Positions 4,388 through 24,734 of a stretch of DNA of 28,737 bases are shown piece after piece (position 1 is the first letter of the stretch; every line of letters starts with the position of its first letter). The DNA comes from a virus: IMG/VR virus record IMGVR_UViG_3300041016_000333, positions 1-28,737 of that record. One strand, given 5' to 3'. The notes under the pieces are model-generated. The model had not been told where the DNA came from and ran no database searches. It saw only the letters and a program-made list of their open reading frames with translations. Position numbers and translations under genes: made by a program.

Positions 4388-4420
4388 TTTTATTATAAAT
4401 ATATTTTTGTTATTTCTGTT
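4388..4420 (-). promoter_or_regulatory. Candidate phage-specific promoter P1
   Basis: On the minus strand AACAGA (4415-4420) is followed after exactly 17 nt by TATAAT (4392-4397), inside the 15-mer ATATTTATAATAAAA (4388-4402), which recurs exactly at three other gene starts. The ATG begins 7 nt after TATAAT, so a transcript would be essentially leaderless. A leftward terminator lies upstream at 4802-4829, so a new promoter is expected here for the portal cluster. A role in translation initiation is the main alternative. Confidence 0.6.
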
Positions 4421-4429
4421 TATGGGTCA

Positions 4430-4459
4430 TTGCCAGTCCAAACTAAATACCTATATTTG
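4430..4459 (+). promoter_or_regulatory. Bacteroidota-type host promoter
   Basis: TTG at 4430-4432 and TATATTTG at 4452-4459 are separated by 19 nt. This fits the Bacteroidota housekeeping consensus (TTTG/TTG near -33, TAnnTTTG near -7). Transcription would begin near 4465, about 20 nt before the ATG at 4486. It is arranged back to back with the leftward candidate phage promoter at 4388-4420. Confidence 0.65.
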
Positions 4460-4485
4460 TAGAAACAATTAAAAACAGAAACATT

Positions 4486-4794
4486 ATGAAACTCATTAAC
4501 AAACACACAGGAGAAAAATTAAAATCTAAATTTCACAATGAAGCAAAAACAATTTTGATGACATCATTTATTTCCGCACAAATGATGACAAAAGAAATGC
4601 AAGTATTGTTTTGTAATAAACATTGGAAATCTATGTCTATTGAATATCTTGAAACACACAATAATGAAGAATTATTATTTATGACATCATTAAAAATTGC
4701 TAGTGAAGCATTTAAATGGAATATGGATTTTGATAATGTTTCTGAACTTGATGAAGTTATTATTAATGAATTGGAATATATTTGTGGAATTTAA
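4486..4794 (+). CDS. Lone rightward gene, moron-like, unknown function
   Basis: This is the only rightward gene in the window, 102 aa and mostly helical. It begins MKLINKHTGEKLKSKF and contains two Cys and two Trp, with an acidic C-terminus (VSELDEVIINELEY). No membrane segment, HTH or catalytic motif is clear. It has its own host-type promoter (4430-4459) and ends at a hairpin (4802-4829), and it sits inside the late leftward block between the tail tube gene and the 130-aa structural gene. That autonomous layout is typical of a moron, a gene expressed independently of the late programme and often affecting host or competing phages. Base composition is like its neighbours. The function is unknown. 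Confidence 0.65.
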   Translation: MKLINKHTGEKLKSKFHNEAKTILMTSFISAQMMTKEMQVLFCNKHWKSMSIEYLETHNNEELLFMTSLKIASEAFKWNMDFDNVSELDEVIINELEYICGI

Positions 4795-4801
4795 ATAAAA
4801 A

Positions 4802-4829
4802 TCCCCTTACTCCGAATTGAATAAGGGGA
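4802..4829 (-). terminator. Terminator between convergent genes
   Basis: TCCCCTTA (4802-4809) pairs with TAAGGGGA (4822-4829), with two further possible inner pairs. On the minus strand the stem is followed by TTTTTATTT, so it terminates leftward transcription after the tail tube gene. On the plus strand it follows the lone gene's stop by 7 nt, but the downstream sequence (CTCTATATG) is T-poor, so it would be weaker rightward. Confidence 0.75.
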
Positions 4830-4859
4830 CTCTATATGAACCTGAAAAGGAAGAAAAGA

Positions 4860-5372
4860 TTATCCGATTGGAATATCAGTTCCTAAAACTGCTGGATCAA
4901 GTAAGAACGCTCCGTTTGGTGATCTGAAAGTAAATGTGAATGTAACACCATTCATATCTCCTTGAGCAACACCTACAGATGCCATACCTTCACTAGCTCT
5001 ACCTGCTGATTCAACACCACAAGCGTAGTATTGTCCTGCATTTGATTTAGCTACCGCGAAGATTGGGGCTCTACCCAATGCAATCATTAAATTTCTTAGG
5101 TCAGCGTCTAATTCAATGAACTTAACTGATAATGCTGTTTCATAAAACACAGTTCCATTTTCTCTTGAGAAGTTTCCTGTTTGATTTAAACCAGCATATT
5201 CAATATCTTGTTCCATTAAATAGACAGTAACACCACTTGTTACCGCAGTTATAACATTGTTTGCGTCAAGAGCGTAAGCTTGGTCAGCATCATACGTACC
5301 AATATATACTTTCTCTAAACCACCGATTGAAGAACAACCCAATGTATAACCATTATCTATAATACAACTCAT
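4860..5372 (-). CDS. Major tail tube protein
   Basis: The 170-aa product begins MSCIIDNGYTLGCSSIGGLEK, a pattern I associate with tail tube proteins of Bacteroidota siphoviruses. The C-terminal half has FYETALSVKFIELDADLR and GVTFTFTFRSPNGAFLLD, fitting the beta-sandwich that stacks into hexameric rings around the tape measure. It lies 75 nt downstream of the capsid gene and shares with it a similar A-rich leader, consistent with high expression of both. A hairpin (5410-5435) separates the two genes, and a terminator follows. The tube assignment rests on size, motif style and position. Confidence 0.7.
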   Translation of the reverse strand: MSCIIDNGYTLGCSSIGGLEKVYIGTYDADQAYALDANNVITAVTSGVTVYLMEQDIEYAGLNQTGNFSRENGTVFYETALSVKFIELDADLRNLMIALGRAPIFAVAKSNAGQYYACGVESAGRASEGMASVGVAQGDMNGVTFTFTFRSPNGAFLLDPAVLGTDIPIG

Positions 5373-5409
5373 AATTTATATTTTTTAATTTTGTTTATTA
5401 TTTTTTATA

Positions 5410-5435
5410 AATGGGGGACTAACACATCCCCCATT
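5410..5435. other. Intergenic hairpin between capsid and tail tube genes
   Basis: AATGGGGGA (5410-5418) and TCCCCCATT (5427-5435) form a perfect 9-bp stem with an 8-nt loop. Neither strand has an unbroken T-run after it (minus: TATAAAAAAT), so it is not a classic terminator. It may protect the 3' end of capsid mRNA or partly attenuate transcription into the tail tube gene. Confidence 0.55.
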
Positions 5436-5446
5436 AAATTATTTCA

Positions 5447-6382: not shown

Positions 6383-6418
6383 AATTTAATTTTTTTAATT
6401 GTTTATTGTTATTTTTTA

Positions 6419-7156
6419 TTATCTATTTGCAAAGAATTTCAATTTATCTTCTTTTGAGTTCTTTGTTAAATTAATTTTTTGATTGATTGGTTCTGCCGAA
6501 GGGGCTTTAGCAAACATATCAACTCTTGATTTTAATGATTCATTCTCATTTTTAACAGATGTTAATTCATTTGTTAATGTGTTGATCTTTTCTAATAGTA
6601 ATTCTAATGAACTAAATACTTCTTCCATACCAACCTCATCTTCTTTTTTGGTATCAGGGGTTTCAATTTCATTAATCATTCCATCAGCATCAACATAAAT
6701 AACTCTACCATCAGCCAAATTGTGTTGTCCTTCAGGTGCTTTAACATATTCACCATCTATTTCAACCTCAACTTTATTACCAACAGCTAAATCACCATCA
6801 ACTCTAACTTTTGTTCCATCAAGTAATGTTGTTTCAGCAAACTCTTGTGTTGAAACTTCATTCATAACTTCTTCAACTTTCATATCCTCTTCGCCAATTG
6901 ACTCTTCAGATTCTCTCATTCTATCAACAATACCACCAGCTATTGTTAATACCATACCATCTTCCAATGTATATTCACCATCTTCAACTGGTACTTCACC
7001 ATCTTGGGTAATCTCAGTGATTTTAGATCCAACATCTAATCCATCACTTTCACATCTTAAAATTCTTCCATCCATTGTCTTATAATCCATAAATTTATAA
7101 TCTTCTTGGGTTGAGAATAATTCTTTAATTCTTGTTAAAATATTCGCTTTATCCAT
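6419..7156 (-). CDS. Capsid scaffold protein with two tandem repeats
   Basis: The 245-aa acidic protein lies immediately upstream of the capsid gene. It contains two related blocks of about 60 residues (about 25-82 and 108-166), each built on a DGxxL...VG.K...DGE...PxGxxxLxDGxV pattern, followed by a coiled coil (about 178-215: LELLLEKINTLTNELTSVKNENESLKSRV) and a basic C-terminal tail (KEDKLKFFANR). A basic tail that binds the capsid and an internal coiled coil are classic scaffold features. The DGE repeat blocks are common in scaffold-like proteins of Bacteroidota phages. A candidate phage promoter variant (7167-7195) precedes it, so it probably heads the scaffold-capsid-tube unit. Confidence 0.7.
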   Translation of the reverse strand: MDKANILTRIKELFSTQEDYKFMDYKTMDGRILRCESDGLDVGSKITEITQDGEVPVEDGEYTLEDGMVLTIAGGIVDRMRESEESIGEEDMKVEEVMNEVSTQEFAETTLLDGTKVRVDGDLAVGNKVEVEIDGEYVKAPEGQHNLADGRVIYVDADGMINEIETPDTKKEDEVGMEEVFSSLELLLEKINTLTNELTSVKNENESLKSRVDMFAKAPSAEPINQKINLTKNSKEDKLKFFANR

Positions 7157-7166: not shown

Positions 7167-7195
7167 ACTTTAAATATATTTTATTTATTTGTGTT
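7167..7195 (-). promoter_or_regulatory. Candidate phage promoter P6 (variant) before scaffold
   Basis: AACACA (7190-7195, minus strand) and TAAAGT (7167-7172) are spaced exactly 17 nt. The spacer ends in ATATATT and the -10-like box runs on into AAAA, as in the exact members of the family. The -10 box departs from TATAAT at two positions. It would drive the scaffold, capsid and tail tube genes. The ATG lies 10 nt downstream of the box. Confidence 0.4.
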
Positions 7196-7644
7196 TAATC
7201 CTTTAGTTCTTTCTTAACCTCACTAAAACTAAACACCATATCTTTAATACTCTTTATAAACTTTTTAATCTTTTCAGATATACCTTCACCTTTAACCCAT
7301 CTTATCTTTTCATCAATTGATGTATATTCAATCCATACAAATAATCCAGTCCAAAATTTGGTGAATAAATAATCAAACCATATATATTTTTTAGTTATTT
7401 CATTTATGATAGTTCTGTCAATTAAATAAACCAAAAGGATTACAGATAGATAAATCATTAACTTCATTGTAATACCCTTTCTTGTAATCTTACTTGTAAT
7501 TAATTCACCTTTCTTTTTAGCGTACCATCTACCAACGAATGTATCAAATATTACCATAATTGTAATAATTAACATAAGTGGTTGAAGTGGGGCAATGAAT
7601 GCAAGAAATACAATCCAAAAATTATTTAATGCTGTTAGTTTCAT
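7195..7644 (-). CDS. Holin family protein
   Basis: This 149-aa membrane protein has a long hydrophobic N-terminal stretch (about 7-37, probably two segments split by APLQPL), a second region at about 60-80 (KLMIYLSVILLVYLIDRTII) and a weaker one near 92-106, then a charged Lys-rich C-terminus. The pattern of TM segments, a loop with YAKKKGELITSKITRKG and a conserved-looking IEYTSIDEKIRW matches phage holins of the Bacteroidota type. Holins form lethal inner-membrane holes that trigger lysis. It overlaps the protease gene by 4 nt (ATGA), so translation is probably coupled. No endolysin is visible in the window. Confidence 0.7.
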   Translation of the reverse strand: MKLTALNNFWIVFLAFIAPLQPLMLIITIMVIFDTFVGRWYAKKKGELITSKITRKGITMKLMIYLSVILLVYLIDRTIINEITKKYIWFDYLFTKFWTGLFVWIEYTSIDEKIRWVKGEGISEKIKKFIKSIKDMVFSFSEVKKELKD

Positions 7645-8582
7645 AGGTTTAAAATACTTTTAATTTTAATTTCTTTATCCTCATCGGATATATTTGAATT
7701 GATGATATCTTCAATTTGACTGAATTTTTTGTTAATCATATCTTCTTCATATTGCTCAATGAATTTACCTTCTAAACTAAACCCACTAAATTCATTTGAA
7801 GTTTTGATTTTATCCCAATATTCTTCATTATCAATATAAAATGAACCAACCCAACTACCTTTTGGTAAATCAGGATATAATTCAGATGTTACTCTATCCC
7901 CAACAATAAAAGATTCAATAAGATATACATCCTTTACAATCTTTTTTGGATCGTGTTGTTCGTTAACATTATTGATTTTATTCTCCTTGAAGTATTTTTT
8001 CATCATCTTTAAGATTGTATCTTCACTGAACTTAACATAATACTTACCAAATATTGGATGATATCTTAAAATAGGTGTTTCAGCAATCATAACTGGGGAT
8101 GTTACAATCCTTTTTTCATCTGATTGGAATATATGTTTTGACATATTACCCATTGACATATTGTGATGTATCCATTCCATCTTTCTAATTGCCCAATTAA
8201 TACCTTCATCTCCTCCCCAATAATCCCAAGATATACCACCACATCCTTTATCATAAGGAACATCTTTATTTTGTTGGTGTCTTTTAAATGCTGCCATCCT
8301 ACCAATTGTATCAACACTAATATTTTCTCTGTTACACAATTGATTTGCTCTTTTTAATCCTACTTGTGTTGCACAATCATTAGGATTTTTTTCTTTATAT
8401 TTTAATGCTCTACAAGCATTTTCTGAAGCAGCTTTTGGGTAGTCATTATAGGTATCAGTTTGAACTGAAAACATATTCCATACTAAATCAGTTGCTGGTT
8501 TATCAACAAATGAAATAGCATCCATACCTGAATACATATCATTTTCTTCAATATCAAGATAAATAACTAATGGTTTATCCAT
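7641..8582 (-). CDS. XkdF-like prohead serine protease with inserted module
   Basis: The 313-aa protein carries the XkdF-type (Peptidase_S78_2) signature: AISFVDKPA near residues 22-30, VTSPVMIAETPILR (160-173), NEQH (207-210), ESFIVGDR (223-230) and LPKGSWVGSF (239-248), ending FSGFSLEGKF (265-274). His210 with Ser224 or Ser243 are candidate catalytic residues. Such proteases mature the prohead. Between the two conserved blocks is an extra module of about 95 residues (about 47-140: YPKAASENACRALK...GRMAAFKRHQQ...WGGDEGINWAIRK), a domain I recall from other phage proteins but of unknown role. The gene overlaps the holin gene by 4 nt and follows the tape measure. Confidence 0.75.
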   Translation of the reverse strand: MDKPLVIYLDIEENDMYSGMDAISFVDKPATDLVWNMFSVQTDTYNDYPKAASENACRALKYKEKNPNDCATQVGLKRANQLCNRENISVDTIGRMAAFKRHQQNKDVPYDKGCGGISWDYWGGDEGINWAIRKMEWIHHNMSMGNMSKHIFQSDEKRIVTSPVMIAETPILRYHPIFGKYYVKFSEDTILKMMKKYFKENKINNVNEQHDPKKIVKDVYLIESFIVGDRVTSELYPDLPKGSWVGSFYIDNEEYWDKIKTSNEFSGFSLEGKFIEQYEEDMINKKFSQIEDIINSNISDEDKEIKIKSILNL

Positions 8583-8618
8583 AACATATATATTTAAAAT
8601 TTAATAATGTTTAATCGT

Positions 8619-11603
8619 TTAAAAAGTGGTTGTATTTTGAATTCTTTTAACCCTCTGTTGAGATGAGGTTATATCTTGTTCTACAACGTACGCTCTAATC
8701 GTTTGTGTTTGTTTATTATCATTATAAACAGGTTGTGGTTTACTTGTATTACCCAATGATACTTGTGGTAAAAGATTATTACCCCCACCTGCCATATTAA
8801 CCAAGTTTAATAATTCAGGAAATAATCCTGATGAGTTTGAATTGATTACAGTTTCACCTGGTGCTAACATTGATGGAACACTATCCACACTTGATGGTCT
8901 ACCATTTTGGGGGACAATACCCCCTTTAGCGGCATAAAATTCTGTTGATTCAATTGCTGCTACCTGCATTGCTGCGAATACCCCTGCGACTGTTGCTGCC
9001 AATGTTTTAATTACAATTCCACCTGGTGTTCCAGCATAAGTTGATAAAACAGCATTGATACCATCAATAGTTGCTTGAGCAATTGAGAACCTTTTATTTG
9101 ATTGGAATGATTGTCTCTTTAAAGCTTTTTCTTCTTGAGCTTTTTTATTCTCAGTTTCTTTTAAAACTTTATTATATTCCTCATCAGTAATTTTTTTATT
9201 GGCAAGTGCCGCATTATTAGCCTCAATTTCTGCGTTATATATTGAATCAATTTGTTTTAATCTTTCATCTGTTGCTGTCTGTTGTAAGTTTTGAAGTCCC
9301 TGTAATAATTGGGATGCTAATTGACTAAACAATTGAACCTTCTCAACTCTATATTGAAATATAGCATCCTGTGTTTTCTTTTCAGCATCCTCAGTTTCTT
9401 GTCTAAATTGTTCGTCAGATTCTGCTTCTTTAACCTTAGCTTCCTTATTTAAATTTTCATTTTGTTTATTGATGACTTCGGTGGCTTTTTTCTCCAAATC
9501 AATTCTTTTTTGAATATCTTCAGCCCCCATCTTATTTATCTCATCCTGTTTTTCTTTTGTTGTTTTAACCTCATATTGTTTTGTATCTTCATTGTATTTA
9601 ACGGTTAAATCATATTGTGTCTCAAAAGATTTTACTATTTCAGCAATTTGAAGATCTCTTTCAGCTTTAATAATTCTTTTTCTTTCTTCGTTTTCATTTT
9701 TTAATAAACTTGTAATATAAACACTTGCTTGTTTTAATGCTGGTCTATACCCTTTTTCGGTATTGATAAAGAAATCAGCAACCGATTTTTCTGTTTCATC
9801 ATTTACCCCAATTAAAAGTGCTAATTTTTTATCTTGTAATTTCTTAAATTCACCAAATTCTAAATCATTACCTTGTAATTGGGTTTCAATTCTATCTAAT
9901 TCAAGTCGTTGTCTTCTATTATATAAACTCTTTAAACTATCTGTAACATTATTATTACCAAATGTGATTTCATTCTGTAATACTTTTTCAGCAACAGTTA
10001 AATCATCATACATTTTTTGAGCATCCTTACGTCTTTGGGTGTATAATTGATTAAGTTGTTCTTGTGTTAAATTATTTTGTGCTACAACATACTTCTGATA
10101 ATTAAATTCCAATGACTTTAATAGGGATGCTTTATCTTTTTCATCCTTAATTTGTTCGTTAATCTTCTTCTTTGTTTCTGTATATCTAAGTGTGATGGCA
10201 TCTAATGCTACTTCTTTTTCATATTCAATATCATCAACAGCATCTTTTGTTCTTTGATTTCTTAATTTGGATAATTCAATCTCTTTTGTGTTAGCTTCTT
10301 CACCTAATGTTTTAATTTCATTATATAATTCATTATACGATTTCTTTAAATCATCATTTGCTTTAACAATTTCTTTTGATTGTTCTACATATTTCTTACC
10401 CCCATTGGTTAATTCATCTTCAGATGTTTTTAATACGTCAATTCTTTTGGTATAACTTTGTAATTTAAATTCAGCACCTGACAATTGAGCTTGATATTCT
10501 TCCAATGATTTAACAAGTTCGGAGTTATTTCTATAATATTCACCAACTGTTATATTTAATTTTTTGGAAACCCTTTCTGCTTCAATTTGAATGTTCTGAA
10601 TTTTGGTTTCTAATTCAAGTTTCTTGGTTAAAACTTTATTGAAAGCCTCCTCATTCTTTTGTATTCTTAATTTAACAGTTTGATATTGGATATAATCAGC
10701 AACTTCTTTATTTAATATTTTTTGAAATTGAGCTTCATCCGATATATTTTTTAGTGTTGTTCCATATTCAGTATTAATTTCTTTAATTAAATCCTTTCTT
10801 TGTTTTGAATTTTCATTTGTTTGTTTCAATTGGTATATCAAACTGACAAATTTTGTTGATTCATCAGATATTGTTTTAATTGATTGTTTTTGTGCTTCAA
10901 TTGTTGCTAAATAAGCCTTTCTTCTTTTTTCTTCCTCTTTTGTTGATTCACTTGTTTTACTATTAAGAATGGATAATGCTGTAACCAACGCTAATACACC
11001 TGTAATAATTAATGCCACAGGGTTTGCCTTCATTGTGGTATTCAATCCCTCTTGAGCTACTGTTGCTCCTTCAGTGGCAACTGTTTCTGCTTCAGTGGCG
11101 ACAGTTAATATCCCCATTGATTGTGCTGCTGCCATCGCAGAAGCTTTAATTTGGGTCATTGTATCACCAAGACCACCCAATGTTTTGATTGCGTCAGATA
11201 ATCCTGCAAGTGCTTGTAATTTAACCAATGTCTTTTGTAGATCTTCAGATTCACTTCCAAACAATGCTTGAGCAGATGTGATAGCTTGAAAACCAGCAAT
11301 TCCAATTGATGCTGTTGAATTTAATGCTGTCCCCAAGTTTTCAACAGATGAACCAGCAGTTGAATTAATTACATCTTGTGTATCCTTGATTTGGTCTCTT
11401 AATTTACCTGCCTCAATGGATAATTCTCTAAACCTAGTAGAACCTTCATCAAGATTATTTAATTCATTCTGCATTGCTCTTAATTGAGCCTTTAAGGATG
11501 TAGTTTGTTTTACAGTTTGACCCAATTCTTGATTTAATTTATTAACAGAATTGTCTGCCTGTTTTGAATCTACTCTAATATTAATTTGTGCCGTGCTAGC
11601 CAT
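8619..11603 (-). CDS. Tail tape measure protein
   Basis: The 994-aa product is the tape measure, which fixes tail length inside the tube and helps eject DNA. The N-terminus (about 1-80) is a coiled coil with AQLRAMQNELNNLDEG. A hydrophobic segment follows near 192-213 (NPVALIITGVLALVTALSIL), then long Lys/Glu-rich coiled coils (about 215-800). A second hydrophobic region near 880-905 precedes a Gly-rich tail with SSVDSVPSMLAPGETVINS, a motif I know from many tape measures. At about 1.5 angstrom per residue the length predicts a tail near 150 nm. The gene lies between the adhesin-like protein and the prohead protease, an order seen in Bacteroidota phages rather than in lambda. Confidence 0.85.
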   Translation of the reverse strand: MASTAQINIRVDSKQADNSVNKLNQELGQTVKQTTSLKAQLRAMQNELNNLDEGSTRFRELSIEAGKLRDQIKDTQDVINSTAGSSVENLGTALNSTASIGIAGFQAITSAQALFGSESEDLQKTLVKLQALAGLSDAIKTLGGLGDTMTQIKASAMAAAQSMGILTVATEAETVATEGATVAQEGLNTTMKANPVALIITGVLALVTALSILNSKTSESTKEEEKRRKAYLATIEAQKQSIKTISDESTKFVSLIYQLKQTNENSKQRKDLIKEINTEYGTTLKNISDEAQFQKILNKEVADYIQYQTVKLRIQKNEEAFNKVLTKKLELETKIQNIQIEAERVSKKLNITVGEYYRNNSELVKSLEEYQAQLSGAEFKLQSYTKRIDVLKTSEDELTNGGKKYVEQSKEIVKANDDLKKSYNELYNEIKTLGEEANTKEIELSKLRNQRTKDAVDDIEYEKEVALDAITLRYTETKKKINEQIKDEKDKASLLKSLEFNYQKYVVAQNNLTQEQLNQLYTQRRKDAQKMYDDLTVAEKVLQNEITFGNNNVTDSLKSLYNRRQRLELDRIETQLQGNDLEFGEFKKLQDKKLALLIGVNDETEKSVADFFINTEKGYRPALKQASVYITSLLKNENEERKRIIKAERDLQIAEIVKSFETQYDLTVKYNEDTKQYEVKTTKEKQDEINKMGAEDIQKRIDLEKKATEVINKQNENLNKEAKVKEAESDEQFRQETEDAEKKTQDAIFQYRVEKVQLFSQLASQLLQGLQNLQQTATDERLKQIDSIYNAEIEANNAALANKKITDEEYNKVLKETENKKAQEEKALKRQSFQSNKRFSIAQATIDGINAVLSTYAGTPGGIVIKTLAATVAGVFAAMQVAAIESTEFYAAKGGIVPQNGRPSSVDSVPSMLAPGETVINSNSSGLFPELLNLVNMAGGGNNLLPQVSLGNTSKPQPVYNDNKQTQTIRAYVVEQDITSSQQRVKRIQNTTTF

Positions 11604-11615
11604 ATATAATTATTT

Positions 11616-12797
11616 TTAGTTTACGAATGTGAATGAACCTCCACCACTTGATGGTGATGAACCCCAAGATGATACCACAGTTATATTTGTTGTATTTGTT
11701 GTTGCTCCACTTAATACTTCTATTGCGTTTGTTGCTATTATATCTGTAAATTGTGTAAAATTACAAGATGAACTACCTGTTACATTTAAGGTTGCTTGTA
11801 CCCCTGATGATGATGATTTAATTGTATTTCTATTTCCTGAACCCATACCATAAACAAATAGATTGGATAATGTATTTGTTGTCCCTGTTGGAATAGATAA
11901 GTTTGTACCAAGATATGTAATTGTACCAACACTATTAACTGAGTTATGACCTAAATACATATTAGTTCCATTTATTCTACCTGCTCCTGCAAATATTAAA
12001 TTGTTTAAAACAGTACTTGATGAACCACCTAGAAAAAAATCTGTAAAACGTAAATTACTTGTTAATGATACTGTTGTTGCGTTGACTGATAAAGCATTTA
12101 TTCTATCCCAAGTCATACCACTTGTATTTAATGTTATAGTTCCGTTAACGGCATTAAATTTTAAAATAGCAGCATTACTAGCAAATGAACCTGATGTATA
12201 AGTAACTGTACTAAGATTGTTTGGGCCTAATCCTTGTGTATTTATTGTTACTGTTCCTGAATGTTGAAATGTGAATGGGGTTTGAAATGATTGACAATCT
12301 ATTGATTGTGCTCCTGAACCAGCAATTCTTATATTTGTTGTACCACCTACAGCATTTGTAGATGAACTAAAATTACCTGTAACAAACATACTATTACCAT
12401 TTAAAGTTGTTGATACTGTTTGGGAATATGTCGTTGCTGATAAGTTATCAGCTAATGTTTTAGTTGTATTATTGGTTGCTATCGTAAATGCTGGTATTGA
12501 CCTACCATTAGTTGTAATTGTTGCAGTTGAAATGGATGTTAATGCAGCAGTTCCAGCGAATGTCATACTAGCCCCCAATGTAATATTATTGGTTACAGTC
12601 AATGCATTCGTCATTGTTATGGTATTTGTATAAGTTGATAAGTTCAAACTTAAACAAGCGGCAGCAACGTTTATTGTTAATTGACCTGATGTGGCTGTTG
12701 ATACAACATCATCTGCTGAAGTTGGGACTGCTCCTTCAACCCAAGTACCTACTGTGTTCCAGTTTCCACCACCATTGGCTATTGTTCTTGTTGCCAT
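11616..12797 (-). CDS. Beta-rich adhesin-like tail protein
   Basis: The 393-aa protein starts MATRTIANGGGNWNTVGTWV and continues GAVPTSADDVV, a pattern found at the start of many right-handed beta-helix or adhesin domains. The rest is dominated by Thr, Asn, Ser and Ala in short strands (for example TITMTNALTVTNNITLG), with almost no charge and no helices, as expected of a parallel beta solenoid. It lacks catalytic motifs. Lying between the long fibre gene and the tape measure, it is most likely a receptor-contacting tail protein. The upstream AGAGGAA resembles a Shine-Dalgarno site but encodes the end of the preceding small gene. An enzymatic depolymerase cannot be excluded. Confidence 0.6.
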   Translation of the reverse strand: MATRTIANGGGNWNTVGTWVEGAVPTSADDVVSTATSGQLTINVAAACLSLNLSTYTNTITMTNALTVTNNITLGASMTFAGTAALTSISTATITTNGRSIPAFTIATNNTTKTLADNLSATTYSQTVSTTLNGNSMFVTGNFSSSTNAVGGTTNIRIAGSGAQSIDCQSFQTPFTFQHSGTVTINTQGLGPNNLSTVTYTSGSFASNAAILKFNAVNGTITLNTSGMTWDRINALSVNATTVSLTSNLRFTDFFLGGSSSTVLNNLIFAGAGRINGTNMYLGHNSVNSVGTITYLGTNLSIPTGTTNTLSNLFVYGMGSGNRNTIKSSSSGVQATLNVTGSSSCNFTQFTDIIATNAIEVLSGATTNTTNITVVSSWGSSPSSGGGSFTFVN

Positions 12798-13024: not shown

Positions 13025-15340
13025 TTATGATTTTGTAATATAAATAATTAAGTTCACCCTTGTTACTGTGGATGCTGAATCTACATTGAATGCTATAATA
13101 TCACCAGCAGTTACAGATGTTGTCCACGTTGATAATGTTAAATCCTGATTTTTAACTGCTGAAGATAGGGTTGGTTTTTCTGAACCTGCTATTGTATCAG
13201 CAACCGTTGGAGGGAAGTTAGCAAATGTATCTTTCCATACATCAACAACGGTTGAACCTGTTGTATCACCAAATATATTCCATCCTGTAATTGTTCCGTT
13301 ATAAGGTATTGTAATATATCCTTTAACACCTGTTGTGATTGCTGAACCACCACCATCTATTGTAATTCCAAATGAACCTGCTGTTGCTCCTGTTGAAGCA
13401 ACACTATCAACATATCCTTTATCAATTATACTTCTATCTGTGTATTGAGATGAATAATCAGCTGCGTATTCAATTACACCACCAGTTACAGTAATTCCTG
13501 TTGATACTAAATTAATAATTCTTGAATCAACACCATCATTAGCTTCAATAGATATATCAGTATCATTAAATGCTAATTCTGTATATGATACCCCTGTTGT
13601 TGATTGGGATTTTAAATATGAACCATTAAGTGGGTCAAGTGATAAAGTATCTTGTATTGAATTTGTAGTTTGTCCTAATCCATATATTATAACTGAACCA
13701 TCAGATGAAATATTTTCCATATTAATTGATGATACAACAGTACTTGTAGTATTATCAAAAGATGTTAATAATGTTTGATTTGGGTTTATATTAATTGCGG
13801 ATGAATTAGAACTAACCCCCTCAAGAGTTGATAATGAAGTTGCTGTTTGACTTATTGATAAACTTCCTAAATTACCTGTTGCAGTATCAGTTGCGTTTGC
13901 TTGAATAGTACTTACTGATGAAGTTATAGTAGTGTTATTTGTTCCATCATCTACTGTTATAATGGTATTTATTGGTTGAATATCAATTGATGAATAATCA
14001 CCACTAGTTCCATCAGTCATTAATAATTGAGATGATGTTTGACCTATTGTTAATTGTCCAAAATCACCTGTTGCTGTATCAGTCGTTACATTTTGAATGC
14101 TATCTGCTAGCACGTTTAAATAACTATTTTTAACACCATTATCTGTTAATATCTCGGTATTAGTTGAATTATTATCAATAATAGATGTGTCAGTCCCATC
14201 TGTCGTAGTTAAAGTATTACCAAGAATTGTATTTAGAAAATTGGCTGTAGTTCCAGAATTGTCATTAGATATTATTTGATTACCTACTTTATCTAATGTT
14301 AATCTATAATATTCACCCGTATCAACTTTTGTTTCACTTAATTCAATCCCAACACCATCAATATATTTAATTACACCTTGATATTTTGATGTATCGTTAT
14401 ATGTGTTAAATTCTACATAATCTATCATTTGTGTTGATGCATATAGATTACCATTATTAGCATCAACATCAAATTTTAATCTATCTAATTGTTGGTCTGA
14501 TTCTGATATCTCACCTGTTGAAGATTTTGTAATTGTTCTTTTTAATCTATCCCCACCACTATTAACATCTTTTGCAGTATATGATCCACCAGTTGTAAAT
14601 CCTGTTATTGAGGTATCACTAAAAATTGATAATGGGGAACATCCAATAATATTTGAAACATATAAATCAGTAATACAATTTCCTGAACCACCACTGAATG
14701 TTGTATCTGTAAATCCTGTAACAGTTACAGAACCATTTTGTCTATTTAATGTTAAGGTTCCAGAATTATATGTACCACCTGTTACATAATTGTCAGGGTC
14801 TATAGGTAAATTTTGATATGTTGTTGCTGATATTGCTCCATTAATAGTTAATCCTGTCATTACATTGATGAAAACATTTAACGATGCTCCTGAATTGGAT
14901 ACAATTGTTAATCTATTTGCGTTATCATAAGTAAATCCTGTTACATAAATGTCACCAGTATTAATATTTGTTAATCCTGATCCATCACCAAATAATGTTG
15001 TAGCTGAAAAAGCCCCATTAACAGTTAAACCTGTCATCGTATTAATTGATGTTGATAATGATGAACCATTATTATTTGAAATGGTTAATGTATTAGCATT
15101 ATCGTAGGTAAATCCTGTGGCAAATATTGATGAGGTATAACCCGAATTTAATATTTGAAGAATACCATTATCAGTTCTAACCCATAAATTTTCATCTGTT
15201 GTATTTAGAAATAATTCTCCAACAAATAAATCTGTATTAGTAAATGTTGATAGGGTTGTTCCTGTTGGTATTGTGGGTGTTACCCCTGTTTCTGTTGCTC
15301 TTTTTATTAACAACCTTGAATATTCTATTTTATCACTCAT
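13025..15340 (-). CDS. Long tail fibre protein with repeats
   Basis: The 771-aa protein has an N-terminal fibre-attachment-like block (FVGELFLNTTDENLWVRTDNG, about 39-59), then two copies of a repeat of about 50 residues (starting near 75 and 131) with TGFTYDNANxLTI and TMTGLTVNGAxSATT elements. A long Thr/Ser/Asn/Asp-rich middle contains looser repeats (TDTATGxxGxLxIxQT twice), typical of trimeric fibres. The C-terminal 115 residues form a distinct beta domain (GITIDGGGSAITTG ... DVWKDTFANFPPTVADTIAGSEKP) that I recall at the ends of many environmental phage fibres, and it is probably the receptor-binding tip. A candidate phage promoter sits directly upstream. Confidence 0.75.
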   Translation of the reverse strand: MSDKIEYSRLLIKRATETGVTPTIPTGTTLSTFTNTDLFVGELFLNTTDENLWVRTDNGILQILNSGYTSSIFATGFTYDNANTLTISNNNGSSLSTSINTMTGLTVNGAFSATTLFGDGSGLTNINTGDIYVTGFTYDNANRLTIVSNSGASLNVFINVMTGLTINGAISATTYQNLPIDPDNYVTGGTYNSGTLTLNRQNGSVTVTGFTDTTFSGGSGNCITDLYVSNIIGCSPLSIFSDTSITGFTTGGSYTAKDVNSGGDRLKRTITKSSTGEISESDQQLDRLKFDVDANNGNLYASTQMIDYVEFNTYNDTSKYQGVIKYIDGVGIELSETKVDTGEYYRLTLDKVGNQIISNDNSGTTANFLNTILGNTLTTTDGTDTSIIDNNSTNTEILTDNGVKNSYLNVLADSIQNVTTDTATGDFGQLTIGQTSSQLLMTDGTSGDYSSIDIQPINTIITVDDGTNNTTITSSVSTIQANATDTATGNLGSLSISQTATSLSTLEGVSSNSSAININPNQTLLTSFDNTTSTVVSSINMENISSDGSVIIYGLGQTTNSIQDTLSLDPLNGSYLKSQSTTGVSYTELAFNDTDISIEANDGVDSRIINLVSTGITVTGGVIEYAADYSSQYTDRSIIDKGYVDSVASTGATAGSFGITIDGGGSAITTGVKGYITIPYNGTITGWNIFGDTTGSTVVDVWKDTFANFPPTVADTIAGSEKPTLSSAVKNQDLTLSTWTTSVTAGDIIAFNVDSASTVTRVNLIIYITKS

Positions 15341-15348: not shown

Positions 15349-15381
15349 TTTTATTATAAATATATTTATTTCCTTATTGTT
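15349..15381 (-). promoter_or_regulatory. Candidate phage-specific promoter P2
   Basis: AACAAT (15376-15381, minus strand), a 17-nt spacer and TATAAT (15353-15358) lie in the 42-nt gap before the long fibre gene. The 15-mer ATATTTATAATAAAA (15349-15363) is identical to that at three other starts. The ATG is 12 nt downstream of TATAAT. It would drive the fibre, adhesin and tape measure genes. No terminator is visible just upstream. Confidence 0.6.
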
Positions 15382-15382
15382 T

Positions 15383-18300
15383 TTATGGGGTTGTTACACT
15401 ACCAAATGGTGATATTGAACCATCTATTATTGGTCTTAATTTAGAATCACCACCAAAATTCCTAACACTATTTTCACCACCATCCAATTTATCTATTAGA
15501 TTTGTTTTTCCAACGTTCATAACGTCATTTGAACCAGCATCAATTATATATACATAATTTGGAACAATACCATCGTTGTTAATTTTTATTCTATCTAAAT
15601 AAATTGTGTTATCTTCTGTTGCTGTTAAACCATCACCAATTACAAGGATATTGTTTCCACTTGGCATTGATGAATTATTACCAAGTAAAACACCACTTTT
15701 AACATTATTACCAACAAAATTACCCCTACCTTTAATAATAACATCAGGTGAATTTGGGGAATTATTATTTTTCATATTATTGGTTGTCAATACCTCAGAT
15801 ATTGGTGCCCCATTATATGATATTTTAATTTTATCTTTATCAATTCCACCACCTGGTAGTGGGTCAAATGGTGGTCTTGGGAATATTTTATTTGCCCAAC
15901 ATACACCACCCTTATAAGTTCCACCCAATGAAGAACAACACTCAGGTGATACAACTTGACCTGATGCTGATGTATAATATGGTCTTCCTGTTTTTGATTT
16001 CTTTCCAACTATATCTGTGGGACAAGCACTATTTGATTTTGGTATTTCAATTCTATCAGGACTAAAGATTTTTAAATCTGTAATTTTGAATAAAACAACT
16101 TTTGTTAATCTATCATTTGCTACAGGATTATAATCAACAATTTTATTAACCCTCCAATAAGAATTATCAATTAAAATTATATCCCTAAAATCAAACTGTG
16201 AGATATCTTTTGGGGTTAAGTGGAAGTATGCTTCCATCAACCTTGAATTAATGTCTGTAATCTGTCTAAACGTTGGATTATGAAACTTATCCATTAATGT
16301 ATGGACTGGATATTGGTCTGTTTGATAATATGTCTTATATGGATTGTCAAATGATAAATCATATTGTGGATTAAATGGATCATCCCACATACCACAATAT
16401 GGATATACATCTAAAGTTGTCCCCAATACATTTGATTGATTTGGGAAATCCTTTAAGATATAAGTATCATATGTTGTTTGTAATCCACCATAAAATAAAA
16501 TCCTTGTATTGACCTTTCTTGGGGTCATCTGATTATCATTTAAATCAATAAAGAATGGTGCTACCCTATCCCCAATATATAATTGAGCATTTGGTGTAGG
16601 GGAAAACCCTAATTTTAATTCATTTGTTTCATTTGAAAAATCATTCTCTACTTCAAATTGTAAATCACCATAGATTCTTTTGATATCACTATAATATTGG
16701 TTGTTATAATAATCATCATCTTGAGTATATGTGAAGGTATAAAGTTTTGAATCCAATTCTGACATTGGAATAATCTTTATTTCACTATCATTATCTAATT
16801 TATAAGTCCAATCATTTATTTTTGGTTTTGAATTATAGTAATCCTCTCTTGGTTCAATAATAAAATCATTTGGTTTTACTGGATTATCAGCAACAACCAA
16901 GTTAAACATCTTAACAATATCCAAAAAGAAATCTTTAATCTTAACCTGACTTGATAAGATTTGATTCATATTGATGTTTGTATTCACACCATTGTCATTA
17001 TTTGAAGATGGGACAACTTTAAAGGTTGTTGGAATACCATTATAACTTTCTTTTAATAACGCTTGAACCAATATTTGATTATCATCCCCAACCCAATTAA
17101 CTCCCTCATTATATTCTAATCCAAATTCAATAAATAACCTATCACCCTCTTCTAAAAAGACATTTTGTGCTGTCAATATAAATGGTAATGGATTATCTAT
17201 ATCATAAACAGGTGATATTGCTGGTGGGGTAAATGATGGTTGGAATGTTGCGGGGAATTCTGTTGATTGACTTATAAAACTTGATGAACCATTTGTATTA
17301 ACTCTCAATAATCTATAGTAATATCTAAATTCACCCCCTTGAAATTCAATTGTGAATGGTGAATCAATATTGATATATTTCATTATCAACTGACCGTTAA
17401 AATCAATATCATAATATCCTGAATATTGACAGGTATAAACTGAATATGGATCAACTTGTGTTATGTTATTGTCCCAACTACCAAGTAAATCTTGGAAGTC
17501 ATCATCACCTACTGTACCTGACTCCCTATCAAGACCAATAAAATATGTAAAATTTGAATTCTTATACCACCCATACCCGTGTTTCATCAATGGGGATATG
17601 TTTCTATACCCTGTTGGATAATCAGCAACTATGGGGAAATAAGACCATTGATTTGATAACGCTGGTGTTGATTCATCATTTGAACCATTAACCCCAACTA
17701 TTGTCGTTTGTTTATTTATTGCATCAGCATCCTTTTCAATCTTATCGTTTACATAAGGTAGAATTAACTTCTTGAAATAATCACTATTAAAGAAATTGGA
17801 TGTATAGGTAAAACCAGCAGAATCAAATATCTTATCAATAACAGTTTTAACATATACAGATGGGAATAAATCATATGTGTATAATCTATCATATACATCA
17901 GTTGAATTACCATTGATGATATAAGGATAAACATAACCAGTACCAGGTTCACCATATTGTGTATCAACTCCCTGATTTTTAATATTATAAGTCCAAGAGT
18001 TTTGAATATTCTGTTGGGAACGTATGTGATTATATTCTGATAAATCTAAATTCCTTAATGTTAAATCCCCGAAATCAGTTAAAACACTTTTTAATTGACC
18101 TGTGATTACAATTTCATATTCAACTAATTTATTATCAATAAGGATATCAATAAGTTGTAAATCACCTGTTATAATTTGATTGTCCCCAACTCTTAATTCA
18201 CAATAAATCTTTTTAACAGGGTTGAAGAATGCCGCATCAATATTGACATCAAATATCCTTCTAAAAAATGTATTGTTGTTTGGTGTTCCAGGTATTTTAA

Positions 18301-18430
18301 TTGTTTTTGAATATGATGAATTTCTTTTGGTTATATCTAATATATCATCAATTTGAAAGTTTAATGATATATCAGCGTCATCATAGGTATCCAAGATTGT
18401 TTGTGCTGCAATAATTTGGAGTGTATTCAT
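15383..18430 (-). CDS. Large tail-tip or baseplate protein
   Basis: The 1015-aa protein begins with a pattern I recall from Bacteroidota phage tail proteins: SLNFQIDDILDITKRNSSYSKTIKIPGTPNNN (about 22-53). The N-terminal 400 residues and the middle are beta-rich and aromatic. Near 845-875 there is a Cys-containing motif (ECCSSLGGTYKGGVCW). The C-terminus (about 900-970) has short Gly/Asn repeats (KGRGNFVGNNVKSGVLLGNNS) and ILVIGDGLTATEDNTIYLD, like the head domains of beta-solenoid fibres, so it may present a projecting tip. A role as tail-tip hub or fibre-attachment protein is inferred from size and position next to the fibre gene. A promoter and terminator separate it from the preceding gene. 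Confidence 0.6.
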   Translation of the reverse strand: MNTLQIIAAQTILDTYDDADISLNFQIDDILDITKRNSSYSKTIKIPGTPNNNTFFRRIFDVNIDAAFFNPVKKIYCELRVGDNQIITGDLQLIDILIDNKLVEYEIVITGQLKSVLTDFGDLTLRNLDLSEYNHIRSQQNIQNSWTYNIKNQGVDTQYGEPGTGYVYPYIINGNSTDVYDRLYTYDLFPSVYVKTVIDKIFDSAGFTYTSNFFNSDYFKKLILPYVNDKIEKDADAINKQTTIVGVNGSNDESTPALSNQWSYFPIVADYPTGYRNISPLMKHGYGWYKNSNFTYFIGLDRESGTVGDDDFQDLLGSWDNNITQVDPYSVYTCQYSGYYDIDFNGQLIMKYINIDSPFTIEFQGGEFRYYYRLLRVNTNGSSSFISQSTEFPATFQPSFTPPAISPVYDIDNPLPFILTAQNVFLEEGDRLFIEFGLEYNEGVNWVGDDNQILVQALLKESYNGIPTTFKVVPSSNNDNGVNTNINMNQILSSQVKIKDFFLDIVKMFNLVVADNPVKPNDFIIEPREDYYNSKPKINDWTYKLDNDSEIKIIPMSELDSKLYTFTYTQDDDYYNNQYYSDIKRIYGDLQFEVENDFSNETNELKLGFSPTPNAQLYIGDRVAPFFIDLNDNQMTPRKVNTRILFYGGLQTTYDTYILKDFPNQSNVLGTTLDVYPYCGMWDDPFNPQYDLSFDNPYKTYYQTDQYPVHTLMDKFHNPTFRQITDINSRLMEAYFHLTPKDISQFDFRDIILIDNSYWRVNKIVDYNPVANDRLTKVVLFKITDLKIFSPDRIEIPKSNSACPTDIVGKKSKTGRPYYTSASGQVVSPECCSSLGGTYKGGVCWANKIFPRPPFDPLPGGGIDKDKIKISYNGAPISEVLTTNNMKNNNSPNSPDVIIKGRGNFVGNNVKSGVLLGNNSSMPSGNNILVIGDGLTATEDNTIYLDRIKINNDGIVPNYVYIIDAGSNDVMNVGKTNLIDKLDGGENSVRNFGGDSKLRPIIDGSISPFGSVTTP

Positions 18431-18434: not shown

Positions 18435-18467
18435 TTTTATTATAAATATTTATTTTTGATGATTGTT
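18435..18467 (-). promoter_or_regulatory. Candidate phage-specific promoter P3
   Basis: AACAAT (18462-18467, minus strand), a 17-nt spacer and TATAAT (18439-18444) include the exact 15-mer ATATTTATAATAAAA (18435-18449). It lies just downstream of a leftward terminator (18480-18499) and 8 nt before the ATG of the 1015-aa tail protein. The terminator/promoter pairing makes a promoter role more likely than a purely translational one. Confidence 0.65.
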
Positions 18468-18479
18468 TTTAAACAAAAA

Positions 18480-18499
18480 TCCCCCATATTTCAGGGGGA
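18480..18499 (-). terminator. Leftward rho-independent terminator
   Basis: TCCCCC (18480-18485) pairs with GGGGGA (18494-18499) around an 8-nt loop. On the minus strand it is followed by TTTTTGTTT. It lies 29 nt after the stop of the 648-aa tail protein gene and ends the unit that begins near the tail chaperone gene. Confidence 0.7.
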
Positions 18500-18527
18500 C
18501 ATATTCATATACATATAAATTCACATA

Positions 18528-22003: not shown

Positions 22004-22272
22004 ACTAATTTATTTTTTTGTTGTGATTCTGTTACCTTGTCCCTATTGTAGAAGTAACTCATCCAATTTAAACAAGATATATAGTTCTTTTTAAATATCT
22101 TGTCATCTGTTGTATTTAATTCTTTTAAAAGGGTGTGAACCATCTGTAACCACATATATCGTTTATCTAATTCAACCTTGTCTTTTAAATCAAATTTGCT
22201 TTGTTTCTTTTTTCTATTTAATTGTTTTCCGAATATTCCCTCATATTGTTTTCTAATAAAGTCGCGCCACCT
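22000..22272 (-). CDS. -1 frameshift extension of the tail assembly chaperone
   Basis: After the slip site, the -1 frame is open from 22272 to a TGA at 22000-22002, giving 90 extra residues beginning RWRDFIRKQYEGIFGKQ and ending ESQQKNKLV. The same frame has a stop at 22318-22320 upstream, so it is accessible only by frameshifting. The stop overlaps the ATG of the next gene as ATGA. The extension fills what would otherwise be a 214-nt gap in a tightly packed operon. The predicted fusion is about 267 aa (177 + 90). It matches the G/GT arrangement of long-tailed phages, where the extension recruits tube subunits to the tape measure. Confidence 0.75.
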   Translation of the reverse strand, partial: RWRDFIRKQYEGIFGKQLNRKKKQSKFDLKDKVELDKRYMWLQMVHTLLKELNTTDDKIFKKNYISCLNWMSYFYNRDKVTESQQKNKLV

Positions 22273-22802
22273 AAAAAAAAAACGAATACCCCATATACTT
22301 GGGATACAGGTAATAATTTAAATATTGATTCTCTATTCATAAATGTCCCCTTGAATGACTCCAATTTTCCATTCTCTTTTTTCTTTCTTAGAAATATACA
22401 TAATAACTTTGCCATTGATCCAAATATATTTCCATTTGATGATTCAATAAGGGTTTCAATTGATATGATTTCCCCCATTGTTAATTGACTAAAATCATCC
22501 TTCATAAAATATGTCTCACCCTCAATTTCAACTGAATCAGAATATTTTGAATCAATATCTGTATTGGTGAAATTAACAATGTTAATAAGATTGATAAAAT
22601 CATCGTAGTTCAACATCATCAGCGTTTCTTCATCCACACCAATAAAAATATTTAATGTCTTTACCCCAAGTTCAATGGGGGTTAATTCTTCCCTGTTAAA
22701 TGAAAATAGTTCACAGAATTGTTCCACAGTTACCTCATCCCAAGATTCAGGTATGTTAAATTCTTTAACCTCATCATCAATTGTTAAATTTAGATTCACC
22801 AT
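22218..22802 (-). CDS. Probable tail assembly chaperone (G-like, frameshifting)
   Basis: The 194-aa acidic protein has PESWDEVTVEQFCELFSF near the N-terminus (about 18-35) and a mostly helical remainder, a style common in Bacteroidota phage chaperone-like proteins. Near its C-terminus is a run of ten T (22273-22282 on the minus strand) ending in TTTTTTA (22272-22278), which in the zero frame reads T TTT TTA, a classic -1 slip site. Without slipping, translation ends at 22218. A candidate phage promoter (22812-22840) precedes it, and the large terminase lies upstream. The chaperone role is inferred mainly from the frameshift; it is separated from the tape measure, unlike in lambda. Confidence 0.6.
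   Translation of the reverse strand: MVNLNLTIDDEVKEFNIPESWDEVTVEQFCELFSFNREELTPIELGVKTLNIFIGVDEETLMMLNYDDFINLINIVNFTNTDIDSKYSDSVEIEGETYFMKDDFSQLTMGEIISIETLIESSNGNIFGSMAKLLCIFLRKKKENGKLESFKGTFMNRESIFKLLPVSQVYGVFVFFLGGATLLENNMREYSENN
22272..22278 (-). promoter_or_regulatory. -1 ribosomal slip site TTTTTTA in a T10 run
   Basis: The minus strand reads GTT TTT TTT TTA GGT in the chaperone frame. The heptamer T TTT TTA fits the X XXY YYZ rule, and the surrounding ten T also allow polymerase slippage. Immediately downstream is GGTGGCGCGAC, unusually GC-rich for this genome, which may help stall the ribosome. Both frames are open for about 100 nt around the site. Confidence 0.75.
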
Positions 22803-22811
22803 AAGTTTTTT

Positions 22812-22840
22812 TTAATAAATATATTATTTGATTGATTGTT
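22812..22840 (-). promoter_or_regulatory. Candidate phage promoter P5 (variant)
   Basis: AACAAT (22835-22840, minus strand) and TATTAA (22812-22817) are separated by exactly 17 nt, and the spacer ends in ATATATT as in P1 and P2. The -10-like box differs from TATAAT at two positions and is followed by a run of A. It lies in the 39-nt gap between the large terminase and the tail chaperone gene. Confidence 0.5.
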
Positions 22841-22841
22841 T

Positions 22842-24035
22842 TTATACCATTCTAAAGACAGGTTTTCTTGATCCTTCCTTACGTGCCCCAAGTTTCATCA
22901 TTGCCACATATCTTAATGCATCAAGTCCGTGATTATATGCATCAATGGGGGTGTTGTCATATCCACCATCTTTATTCTTCTTCCACATATATTTTGATAA
23001 TTCATTCAATAGGTTATTACTTCGTTTGGTAATTGACATTGTTTGTTGTTGAAGTATTTGTATTCCATAGTTGATACTATCCCTACCTTTTTCAACTGGT
23101 TTAATTTGATGACCCATTCTTTTTAATTCAGCAATTGATTTGGGTTCAGCACTATCAGCAAATATCTCCCCACTGATTTTATTTTGTTTCATCATATTTG
23201 ATAATTCAGAATTTAATAATCCTGTTTGGTATATCAATTCATCCACAATTAATTCATCATTGTATTTGTATATTCCAATAAGTGCTGCTGGGTCTGTTGA
23301 ATAACCAAAATCCAATCCATATCCCAATAGTTTTGCTTCATCGGGGATTGTATCAATAATTTTATAATCTTGATATATTGTTCCTTCAACTGAACCTATC
23401 TCCCCATCCAAATAAACTTTAACCCAATTGTCCCAATAGGTTGATGTACTTGCTTTATCCCTATATGATTCAAGTTGTTTTACAATCTCAATTGATAATG
23501 CTTCATTGTCCTTATATGTCAATGTTAGAAATTCAACATTATCATCATTTGATAGTTCATTATTAACCCAAAACTTATTTGATGGGTTATAATCCAAATA
23601 TATATCCCCTGTTGTTCTGATTGCTAATTGTAGATATGCTTCGTAATCAATTCCATTTGCTTCATTGACATATAATATATCCCTTCTTGCTCCACGTAAT
23701 TTACCATCATTGTCAGCACCAAAAAATTCAATGTAAGATCCATTGGTGAATGTGTAGATTGAATTTGATATATTCCAATTGGGGGATATGAATCTATTTG
23801 TCCCCTTCATTATTTTTAAGAAGTCACGAATTGCTCCCCTCTTTAAATGGGGGATATTTTCTGATACAACTGATATTGATAGATTGGGGGTCTTGATTGC
23901 CTTGTCAATAAGAATCATAAGGATGGCAATTGTCTTTCCAGCAGATGAACCACCAGGAATTACCTTAATCCTTTTCTTCATCCCCCTTATCTTTCTTATT
24001 GCTGTGGTATATCTAAAATTATTCTTCTGGTTCAT
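22842..24035 (-). CDS. terL: Terminase large subunit
   Basis: The 397-aa protein is the packaging motor and nuclease. It has a Walker A motif GGSSAGKT (28-35), a Walker B-like DILYVNEAN with Glu125 (119-127), and nuclease acidic residues in GLDFGYSTDP (Asp242), FADSAEP (Asp294) and DAYNHGLDALRY (Asp365/Asp372). The layout matches PBSX-type (Terminase_3) large subunits of about 400-430 aa, so it appears full length. Its start lies inside the end of the small-subunit gene, a 17-nt overlap that suggests coupled translation. It uses the ATP-driven translocation and headful- or end-cleavage role common to the family. Confidence 0.95.
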   Translation of the reverse strand: MNQKNNFRYTTAIRKIRGMKKRIKVIPGGSSAGKTIAILMILIDKAIKTPNLSISVVSENIPHLKRGAIRDFLKIMKGTNRFISPNWNISNSIYTFTNGSYIEFFGADNDGKLRGARRDILYVNEANGIDYEAYLQLAIRTTGDIYLDYNPSNKFWVNNELSNDDNVEFLTLTYKDNEALSIEIVKQLESYRDKASTSTYWDNWVKVYLDGEIGSVEGTIYQDYKIIDTIPDEAKLLGYGLDFGYSTDPAALIGIYKYNDELIVDELIYQTGLLNSELSNMMKQNKISGEIFADSAEPKSIAELKRMGHQIKPVEKGRDSINYGIQILQQQTMSITKRSNNLLNELSKYMWKKNKDGGYDNTPIDAYNHGLDALRYVAMMKLGARKEGSRKPVFRMV

Positions 24036-24396
24036 CAGGAAATAATGGTTGCTCTGATATGGTTATATCTTGTCTTAATGGAGCATCAAACCCACTCATT
24101 TTGTTTATTATCTCAATTGCTTTCATCGCAACTGAATCTCTAACTCCCTTATTACTTTTTAATATGTCTTTTAGGTCATTTAAGAGTTCTTCTTTTGTTA
24201 TTTGATAGTATTGTTGGGTTTCTTTTTTAAGTTCGTCTAATCGTTCCTTTATCTTATCATTACCCATCAACCTACTTGCATTACTTTCTGCTTGTTTATC
24301 AGGAACACCATAAACTTTTTTATAAGCGGCTGTGGCGTTAAAACCATTCACCATATATTCCTGACAAAATGTCTCGTGTTTATCTGATAGTTTCAT
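24019..24396 (-). CDS. terS: Terminase small subunit
   Basis: The 125-aa protein begins MKLSDKHETFCQEYMVNGFNATAAYKKVYG, the HTH-bearing N-terminus of the Terminase_2 (XtmA) family, with ESNASRLMGNDKIKERL following (about 37-53). A central helical region (about 58-100) would oligomerise, and the acidic tail SEQPLFPDEPEE would contact the large subunit. It recognises phage DNA and starts packaging. It overlaps the large-subunit gene by 17 nt and starts 2 nt after the stop of the CxxC protein gene, so these three form one unit under the candidate promoter at 24702-24734. Confidence 0.9.
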   Translation of the reverse strand: MKLSDKHETFCQEYMVNGFNATAAYKKVYGVPDKQAESNASRLMGNDKIKERLDELKKETQQYYQITKEELLNDLKDILKSNKGVRDSVAMKAIEIINKMSGFDAPLRQDITISEQPLFPDEPEE

Positions 24397-24398
24397 AA

Positions 24399-24695
24399 TT
24401 ATGATTTTTTAGGTCTCCCTGCTTTATTTTTACAAGATTGACAACCCACTTTAGGTTTAACCTCTTCTGTTGGTGGTGACAATTGAATATTGTGATTATT
24501 TTGACTTAACTCAGTTACATACCAATTATATAATCTTTTTTGTGCCATTTTAATTTGGGCAGCACAGAAAGAACATATTGATATTTTTTCACCGATGTAT
24601 AACTCAAACATTCGTTCCATTGATCTAACATCAGATTTCATTGTTTTTCTTAGGTTGATTAATCTTTCAATCTCTAATTTGTCTTTTTCTTCCAT
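24399..24695 (-). CDS. Small CxxC / AT-hook-like protein before terminase
   Basis: The 98-aa protein has a helical N-terminus (about 1-35), a CSFC motif (about 42-45), a helix IKMAQKRLYNWYVTEL, a CQSC motif (about 85-88) and ends KAGRPKKS, an AT-hook-like GRP core. Two CxxC pairs could bind one zinc, and the GRP tail could bind the minor groove, so DNA binding is plausible. It directly precedes the small terminase and shares its promoter, so a role in packaging-site recognition or late regulation is possible. I do not recognise a named family. Confidence 0.6.
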   Translation of the reverse strand: MEEKDKLEIERLINLRKTMKSDVRSMERMFELYIGEKISICSFCAAQIKMAQKRLYNWYVTELSQNNHNIQLSPPTEEVKPKVGCQSCKNKAGRPKKS

Positions 24696-24701
24696 ATTAT
24701 T

Positions 24702-24734
24702 TTTTATTATAAATATGTTTAATGGTTTTTTGTT
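24702..24734 (-). promoter_or_regulatory. Candidate phage-specific promoter P4 (packaging unit)
   Basis: AACAAA (24729-24734, minus strand), a 17-nt spacer and TATAAT (24706-24711) include the exact 15-mer ATATTTATAATAAAA (24702-24716). It lies directly downstream of the terminator at 24751-24782 and 10 nt upstream of the ATG of the first packaging-unit gene. This is the clearest terminator-then-promoter junction in the window. Confidence 0.65.

Follow-up and report, generated by a model that had tools for sequence, protein, structure and literature searches.

Phages that bring a sigma factor of their own, together with dedicated late promoters, are already known. For instance, it has been established experimentally that the sigma factors of phiEco32 and 7-11 direct host RNA polymerase to late promoters (PMC8948821). 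Here, we describe a repeated two-box element, AAACA-N14-ATATTTA, which precedes late genes in the virus record IMGVR_UViG_3300041016_000333 of IMG/VR (the window in the following, i.e. the whole stretch of 28,737 bases that was analysed, with a G+C content of about 30%), along with two sigma-like proteins, sigma1 and sigma2, encoded in the same window. The element is a real, conserved and phage-specific promoter-like signal. Judging from sequence comparisons, we consider it quite probable that these late promoters are read by the host core RNA polymerase together with sigma1, which itself lies behind a promoter of a second class. It would differ from the systems described so far in its sequences and in the phylum of its host, and in having a second sigma-like protein as well as a second promoter class.

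The closest known case is Salmonella phage 7-11, in which a phage sigma factor (SaPh711_gp47) acts on host RNA polymerase at bipartite late promoters (PMC8948821); what was shown experimentally for 7-11 is predicted here. The consensus of this enterobacterial phage, GTAAtg-(16)-aCTA (PMC8948821), differs from AAACA-N14-ATATTTA in a Bacteroidota phage, which in addition has a second sigma-like protein and a second promoter class with a shared -10-like box; the likeness would be one of outline. Likewise, gp36 of phiEco32 takes host RNA polymerase to late genes (PMC8948821, PMC4331800), but the promoter there is a single element, tAATGTAtA, without a -35 box, whereas two boxes are found here. T4 gp55 is also a small, diverged sigma-like protein serving late genes, and T4 late transcription is in addition activated by the sliding clamp with gp33 (PMC2988020). 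In the window, where no search was aimed at clamp or gp33, no counterpart of these was noticed, and sigma1 matches a model of extracytoplasmic function (ECF) sigma factors, with a score below the curated cut-off, across both region 2 and region 4. Finally, the primary sigma promoters of Bacteroidota have the form TTTG/TAnnTTTG (PMC6847099, PMC9723704). The sequence TATATTTA of the late element resembles their -7 box and would lie at the same distance from the start, but it has A in place of the final G, and its partner is an AAACA at fixed spacing rather than a TTTG further upstream. In the open-access literature that we searched, we found no equivalent system of phage sigma factor and late promoters for Bacteroidota phages.

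The window virus is probably a tailed phage with a host among the Bacteroidota. Portal, terminase and tape-measure genes are recognisable, nearly all genes are oriented leftward, and the host is proposed because the large terminase is 52.6% identical to those of Flavobacterium psychrophilum phages such as FPSV-S2.

The late element and its conservation

Unseeded motif discovery on 124 upstream regions, taken from orthologs of seven late genes, returned AAACA-N14-ATATTTA in 86 of them, with every box position conserved to at least 0.90 and with a log-likelihood of 677, compared with 97-116 in shuffled sequences. The C of the upstream box stands at 0.90 across the discovered sites, and the box contains an AAC, a typical -35 feature of ECF promoters. 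The -10-like box ends in A at 91% of sites and thereby departs from the TAnnTTTG of the Bacteroidota primary sigma promoter. An earlier note on this DNA had regarded TATAAT as the -10 core; since only 16 of the 86 sites contain it, TATAAT is a frequent flank, and the conserved box is ATATTTA instead. A sigma-70 promoter of the type TTGACA/TATAAT was rejected for the same lack of conservation, and a sigma-70-type scan gave no excess over shuffles.

The note had also pointed to an identical 15-mer, ATATTTATAATAAAA, before four leftward starts, and the window indeed contains exactly four copies, all on the minus strand and 3-8 nucleotides upstream of ATGs (Table 1). This 15-mer is not diagnostic by itself: many AT-rich viral contigs have it shortly before an ATG (within 16 nucleotides at 87 of 134 sites), mostly without an AAC box, which makes the two-box form the informative one. 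The further observation of an AAC box 17 nucleotides from TATAAT, or from a degenerate form of it, holds at all six starts for which it was made.

In the window, AAACA-N14-ATATTTA has six perfect matches, exclusively at six leftward late-gene starts. With one mismatch allowed, the count rises to 10, compared with a mean of 2.7 and a maximum of 7 in shuffled sequences. Similarly, AAC combined with TATATTTA (at most one mismatch) shows a sharp minus-strand peak at N14, where 10 matches, four of them exact, compare with a shuffled mean of 1.5. No such element stands before most of the window genes, among them internal genes that are tightly packed. Two boxes at constant spacing, oriented in one direction and placed upstream of genes or operons, are what is expected of a sigma-dependent promoter.

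Table 1. Positions of promoter-like elements, sigma-like genes and associated features in the window.
Feature	Position	Strand	Context
Class L element	4396..4421	-	Exact; before open reading frame (ORF) 3992-4384, with which the portal operon begins; 18/18 orthologs
Class L element	7171..7196	-	Exact; before ORF 6419-7156 (head-region gene); 5/8 orthologs
Class L element	15357..15382	-	Exact; before ORF 13025-15340 (771 amino acids, tail region)
Class L element	18443..18468	-	Exact; before ORF 15383-18430 (1015 amino acids, tail region)
Class L element	22816..22841	-	Exact; before ORF 22218-22802, just downstream of the large terminase; 19/27 orthologs
Class L element	24710..24735	-	Exact; before ORF 24399-24695, which opens the terminase operon; 14/30 orthologs
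Possible seventh class L element, weak	8587..8612	-	One mismatch (ATATATA); before ORF 7641-8582
15-mer ATATTTATAATAAAA	4388-4402, 15349-15363, 18435-18449, 24702-24716	-	Exact match
Terminator-like hairpin	18479-18500		Just upstream of class L element 18443..18468
Host-type promoter TTG-N19-TATATTTG	4430..4459	+	Upstream of the only rightward gene (4486-4794), as a contrast to class L
Class E element CTTTTTC-N11-ATATTTA	27808..27832	-	Before HNH gene 27317-27763, first gene of the sigma1 operon
sigma1, ECF-sigma-like protein, 180 amino acids	26385..26927	-	Proposed late sigma factor; TIGR02937 match below cut-off, weak fold matches
sigma2, with an HNH domain and, after it, an ECF-sigma-like domain at residues about 102-261	27934..28737	-	ORF runs off the window end

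The conservation of the element follows the late genes. In related viral contigs, the element precedes 60 of 93 orthologs of the six window genes that carry it, versus 15 of 236 orthologs of other genes, and shifted control spacings occur before 6/329 and 7/329 orthologs. In 18 records of the family, the pattern AAC-N15-ATATTTA has 99 matches, 93 of them on the majority strand, while the reversed control pattern has five; in 45 other AT-rich viral records, pattern and control are nearly equal (20 and 17 matches). Furthermore, the DNA pattern alone led to a deeper lineage, whose contigs have two to six elements each, nearly all of them (36 of 37) on a single strand. In one of its records (G025), terminase, capsid and portal share no more than 26-39% identity with their window counterparts, but the gene order is the same, and elements again stand before the equivalent genes, one downstream of the terminase and one upstream of the portal. 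Despite its similar terminase, FPSV-S2 gives no sigma match and does not have the element in repeated form; in its 42.7 kb there is one match to the element, and host-type boxes precede several genes instead.

While the spacing between the boxes is constant, the distance from ATATTTA to the ATG varies between 3 and 47 nucleotides (standard deviation 6.5), which argues against a signal anchored at the start codon. The minimum distance is about 4 nucleotides, the two sites at 3 nucleotides coming from loci with a second ATG 3 nucleotides further on. This floor equals the distance from the -7 box to the transcription start in Flavobacterium, which is 4-5 nucleotides (PMC6847099). Transcription from the element would thus probably start 4-5 nucleotides after ATATTTA and give leaders of 0 to about 12 nucleotides; on the host -7 geometry, the closest sites would yield leaderless mRNAs and the window sites leaders of about 7-12 nucleotides. 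Leaderless late mRNAs would be unusual, as just 5.5% of the mRNAs mapped in F. psychrophilum are of this kind (PMC9723704).

As the earlier note had stated, the lone rightward gene has a promoter of the host type; the single other match to this pattern in the window lies inside a gene. Promoter and gene (4430-4794, +) stand back to back with a late promoter, and in a relative (G017), rightward genes behind host-type promoters occupy a comparable position. A further element, AAAAACAA-N8-TATATTTATAA, is found about 11-22 nucleotides before ATGs in another group of viral contigs (L238, L249, L266, L293 and others), four of which have weak sigma-like matches (E about 1e-4). This group, which came from a pattern scan, was set aside because its spacing differs from that of the late element.

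Two sigma-like proteins and a second promoter class

The candidate reader of the late element, sigma1, matches the sigma factor model TIGR02937 with E=2.6e-5 over positions 22-164 of 165, below the curated cut-off. Its AlphaFold2 model has a mean pLDDT (predicted local distance difference test) of 83, and the best fold matches in the PDB are sigma factors, mostly of the ECF type (MtSigL, WhiG, AlgU and E. coli sigmaE). Among isolated phages, sigma1 had no match when 50,697 phage records were searched by tblastn. One scan of bacterial genomes gave no relative either, so that no host emerged from it, and the sigma1 profile retrieved nothing from the PDB in a search by sequence only.

The sigma2 ORF matches HNH_3 (E=2e-6) and TIGR02937 (E=1.4e-4, below the curated cut-off). 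Its homologs in the relatives G001, G002, G005 and G009 and in contig L364 exceed this cut-off, and an iterative search started from sigma2 retrieves sigma1. A relative of 279 amino acids (L218) seemingly has the same layout of HNH and sigma domain, while most other homologs are shorter and lack the HNH part. As to the polymerase itself, a phage-encoded enzyme was considered, but the relatives G001, G012 and G017 showed no recognisable gene for an RNA polymerase; the host enzyme is therefore the likely reader of the phage promoters.

The motif search that yielded the late element also yielded a second class, CTTTT[T/G]C-N11-ATATTTA, with the same ATATTTA but a different upstream box in the same place. 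We refer to the two as class L (late) and class E (early), labels inferred from gene content. The gap between TTTTGC and ATATTTA is 11 nucleotides in 13 of 15 cases, although 4-23 nucleotides were allowed, and class E sites lie up to about 40 nucleotides upstream of the ATG. Within 1.2 kb upstream of sigma1, class E occurs at 24 of 35 loci, while one background window in 202 has it. These counts are not formal probabilities, as the loci are not independent. In the same comparison, class L shows the opposite tendency (5/35 sigma1 loci versus 56/202 background windows). Several class E sites, e.g. in L358 near 7241 (-), carry AAAAGTGACTTTT, a short inverted repeat across the upstream box that could serve as an operator.

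Some observations concern neighbouring genes and single records. Downstream of sigma1, at 24959-26092 (-), lies a gene for a DruA-like protein (PF14236, phrog_19197). It has 138 relatives in viral contigs, and the set that was fetched shows no excess of the promoter element. One phage with a DruA-like gene (G083, contig L016) has a strong ECF sigma match at 11064-11732 (+), with 115 bits; no class L element was noticed in the part of this record that was read. In G001 (L409/L410), similar segments from the terminase to ORF194 lie near both ends, possibly an effect of assembly.

Weighing the readings

In the mechanism that we favour, a holoenzyme of host RNA polymerase core and the ECF-like sigma1 would recognise AAACA as a -35-like and ATATTTA as a -10-like box. 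Since the sigma1 operon lies behind a class E promoter, from which it would be expressed, the late genes would be turned on once sigma1 is made. That sigma1 reads class L and sigma2 reads class E is what the deep lineage points to: while the window family has both sigma-like proteins and both promoter classes, the sigma proteins of the deep lineage match the sigma1 profile only and class L sites are present, with no sigma2 match and no class E found in these incomplete contigs. Six of the 16 deep-lineage records (L256, L262, L243, L276, L284, L270) were included because of a prior sigma1 match; among the ten chosen by element and length, four have a sigma match, all of them among the five longer than 21 kb. 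By comparison, none of 45 control records has a sigma match at E <= 1e-5.

Several points weigh against this reading. The incompleteness of the deep-lineage contigs leaves the absence of sigma2 and class E from this lineage unproven, and common descent confounds the link between element and sigma1, given that the deep relatives have their structural genes in the same order. The element is missing before 33 of the 93 orthologs of element-bearing genes. For sigma1 itself, the TIGR02937 score of 23.9 bits is below the curated cut-off of 42.9, the Pfam matches are insignificant, with none to a sigma family reaching significance, and the fold matches are weak (E 0.036-0.3, template modelling scores below 0.4). 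Moreover, the sigma1 of G003, although 67% identical, gives no TIGR02937 match, which suggests that this model is at its limit here.

Among the alternatives, an improbable one is that TATATTTA serves as a degenerate -7 box (TAnnTTTG ending in A instead of G) for the host primary sigma factor, which a phage activator at AAACA would assist, as in T4 middle transcription with MotA. TATATTTA is indeed one base away from the host box TATATTTG, a true host-type promoter exists in the same phage, and the start-codon floor is compatible with the host -7 geometry. However, Flavobacterium hardly ever departs from the final G of this box (PMC6847099), while most late sites have A in its place, and no activator candidate was identified, compared with two sigma-like proteins. 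Slightly less probable still appears a variant of our own reading, in which sigma2 rather than sigma1 reads the late element, or both sigmas read both classes; the common ATATTTA and the presence of both proteins in the window family would agree with it, but in the deep relatives, incomplete as their contigs are, the element occurs with a sigma1-type protein and no sigma2 match.

We regard it as very unlikely that the element is a translation initiation signal, i.e. an A/T-rich stretch before the start codon for Bacteroidota ribosomes that work without Shine-Dalgarno sequences. The sites do lie just upstream of ATGs in an A-rich region, Flavobacterium prefers A at -3 and -6 (PMC6847099), and other viral contigs, too, have the 15-mer before ATGs; yet the boxes keep their distance from each other and not from the ATG, most genes do without them, even where tightly packed, and class E sites carry the same ATATTTA much further upstream. 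A chance pattern, for which one could cite the A+T content of about 70% and the abundance of single boxes, has practically no standing and is already refuted by the shuffles, none of which reached the observed count, by the orthologous conservation and by the rarity of control patterns and spacings.

Constant spacing, strand bias, conservation among orthologs, near absence elsewhere and the sigma-like proteins thus lend computational support to the proposal of the earlier note that the phage uses the element for recognition by RNA polymerase. This promoter reading, with the box assignment corrected to ATATTTA, is extended by the sigma candidates, class E and the near-leaderless geometry, which that note had missed. 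A wider picture, somewhat less probable than not and distinctly more tentative than the role of sigma1, is that of a Bacteroidota phage lineage with genomes of about 30 kb and a two-step cascade. In it, the promoters of two related ECF-like sigmas would share the -10-like ATATTTA and differ only in the upstream box, CTTTT[T/G]C early and AAACA late, and late mRNAs would be leaderless or nearly so, in hosts whose translation does not depend on Shine-Dalgarno sequences.

If true, these phages would be a ready source of sigma factors and promoters, both phage-specific, for a phylum in which promoters are unlike those of E. coli, and the temporal gene classes of uncultured phages would become readable from sequence. 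Furthermore, a natural pair of sigma factors with a shared -10 box and different -35 boxes would be a clean system in which to study how -35 specificity evolves.

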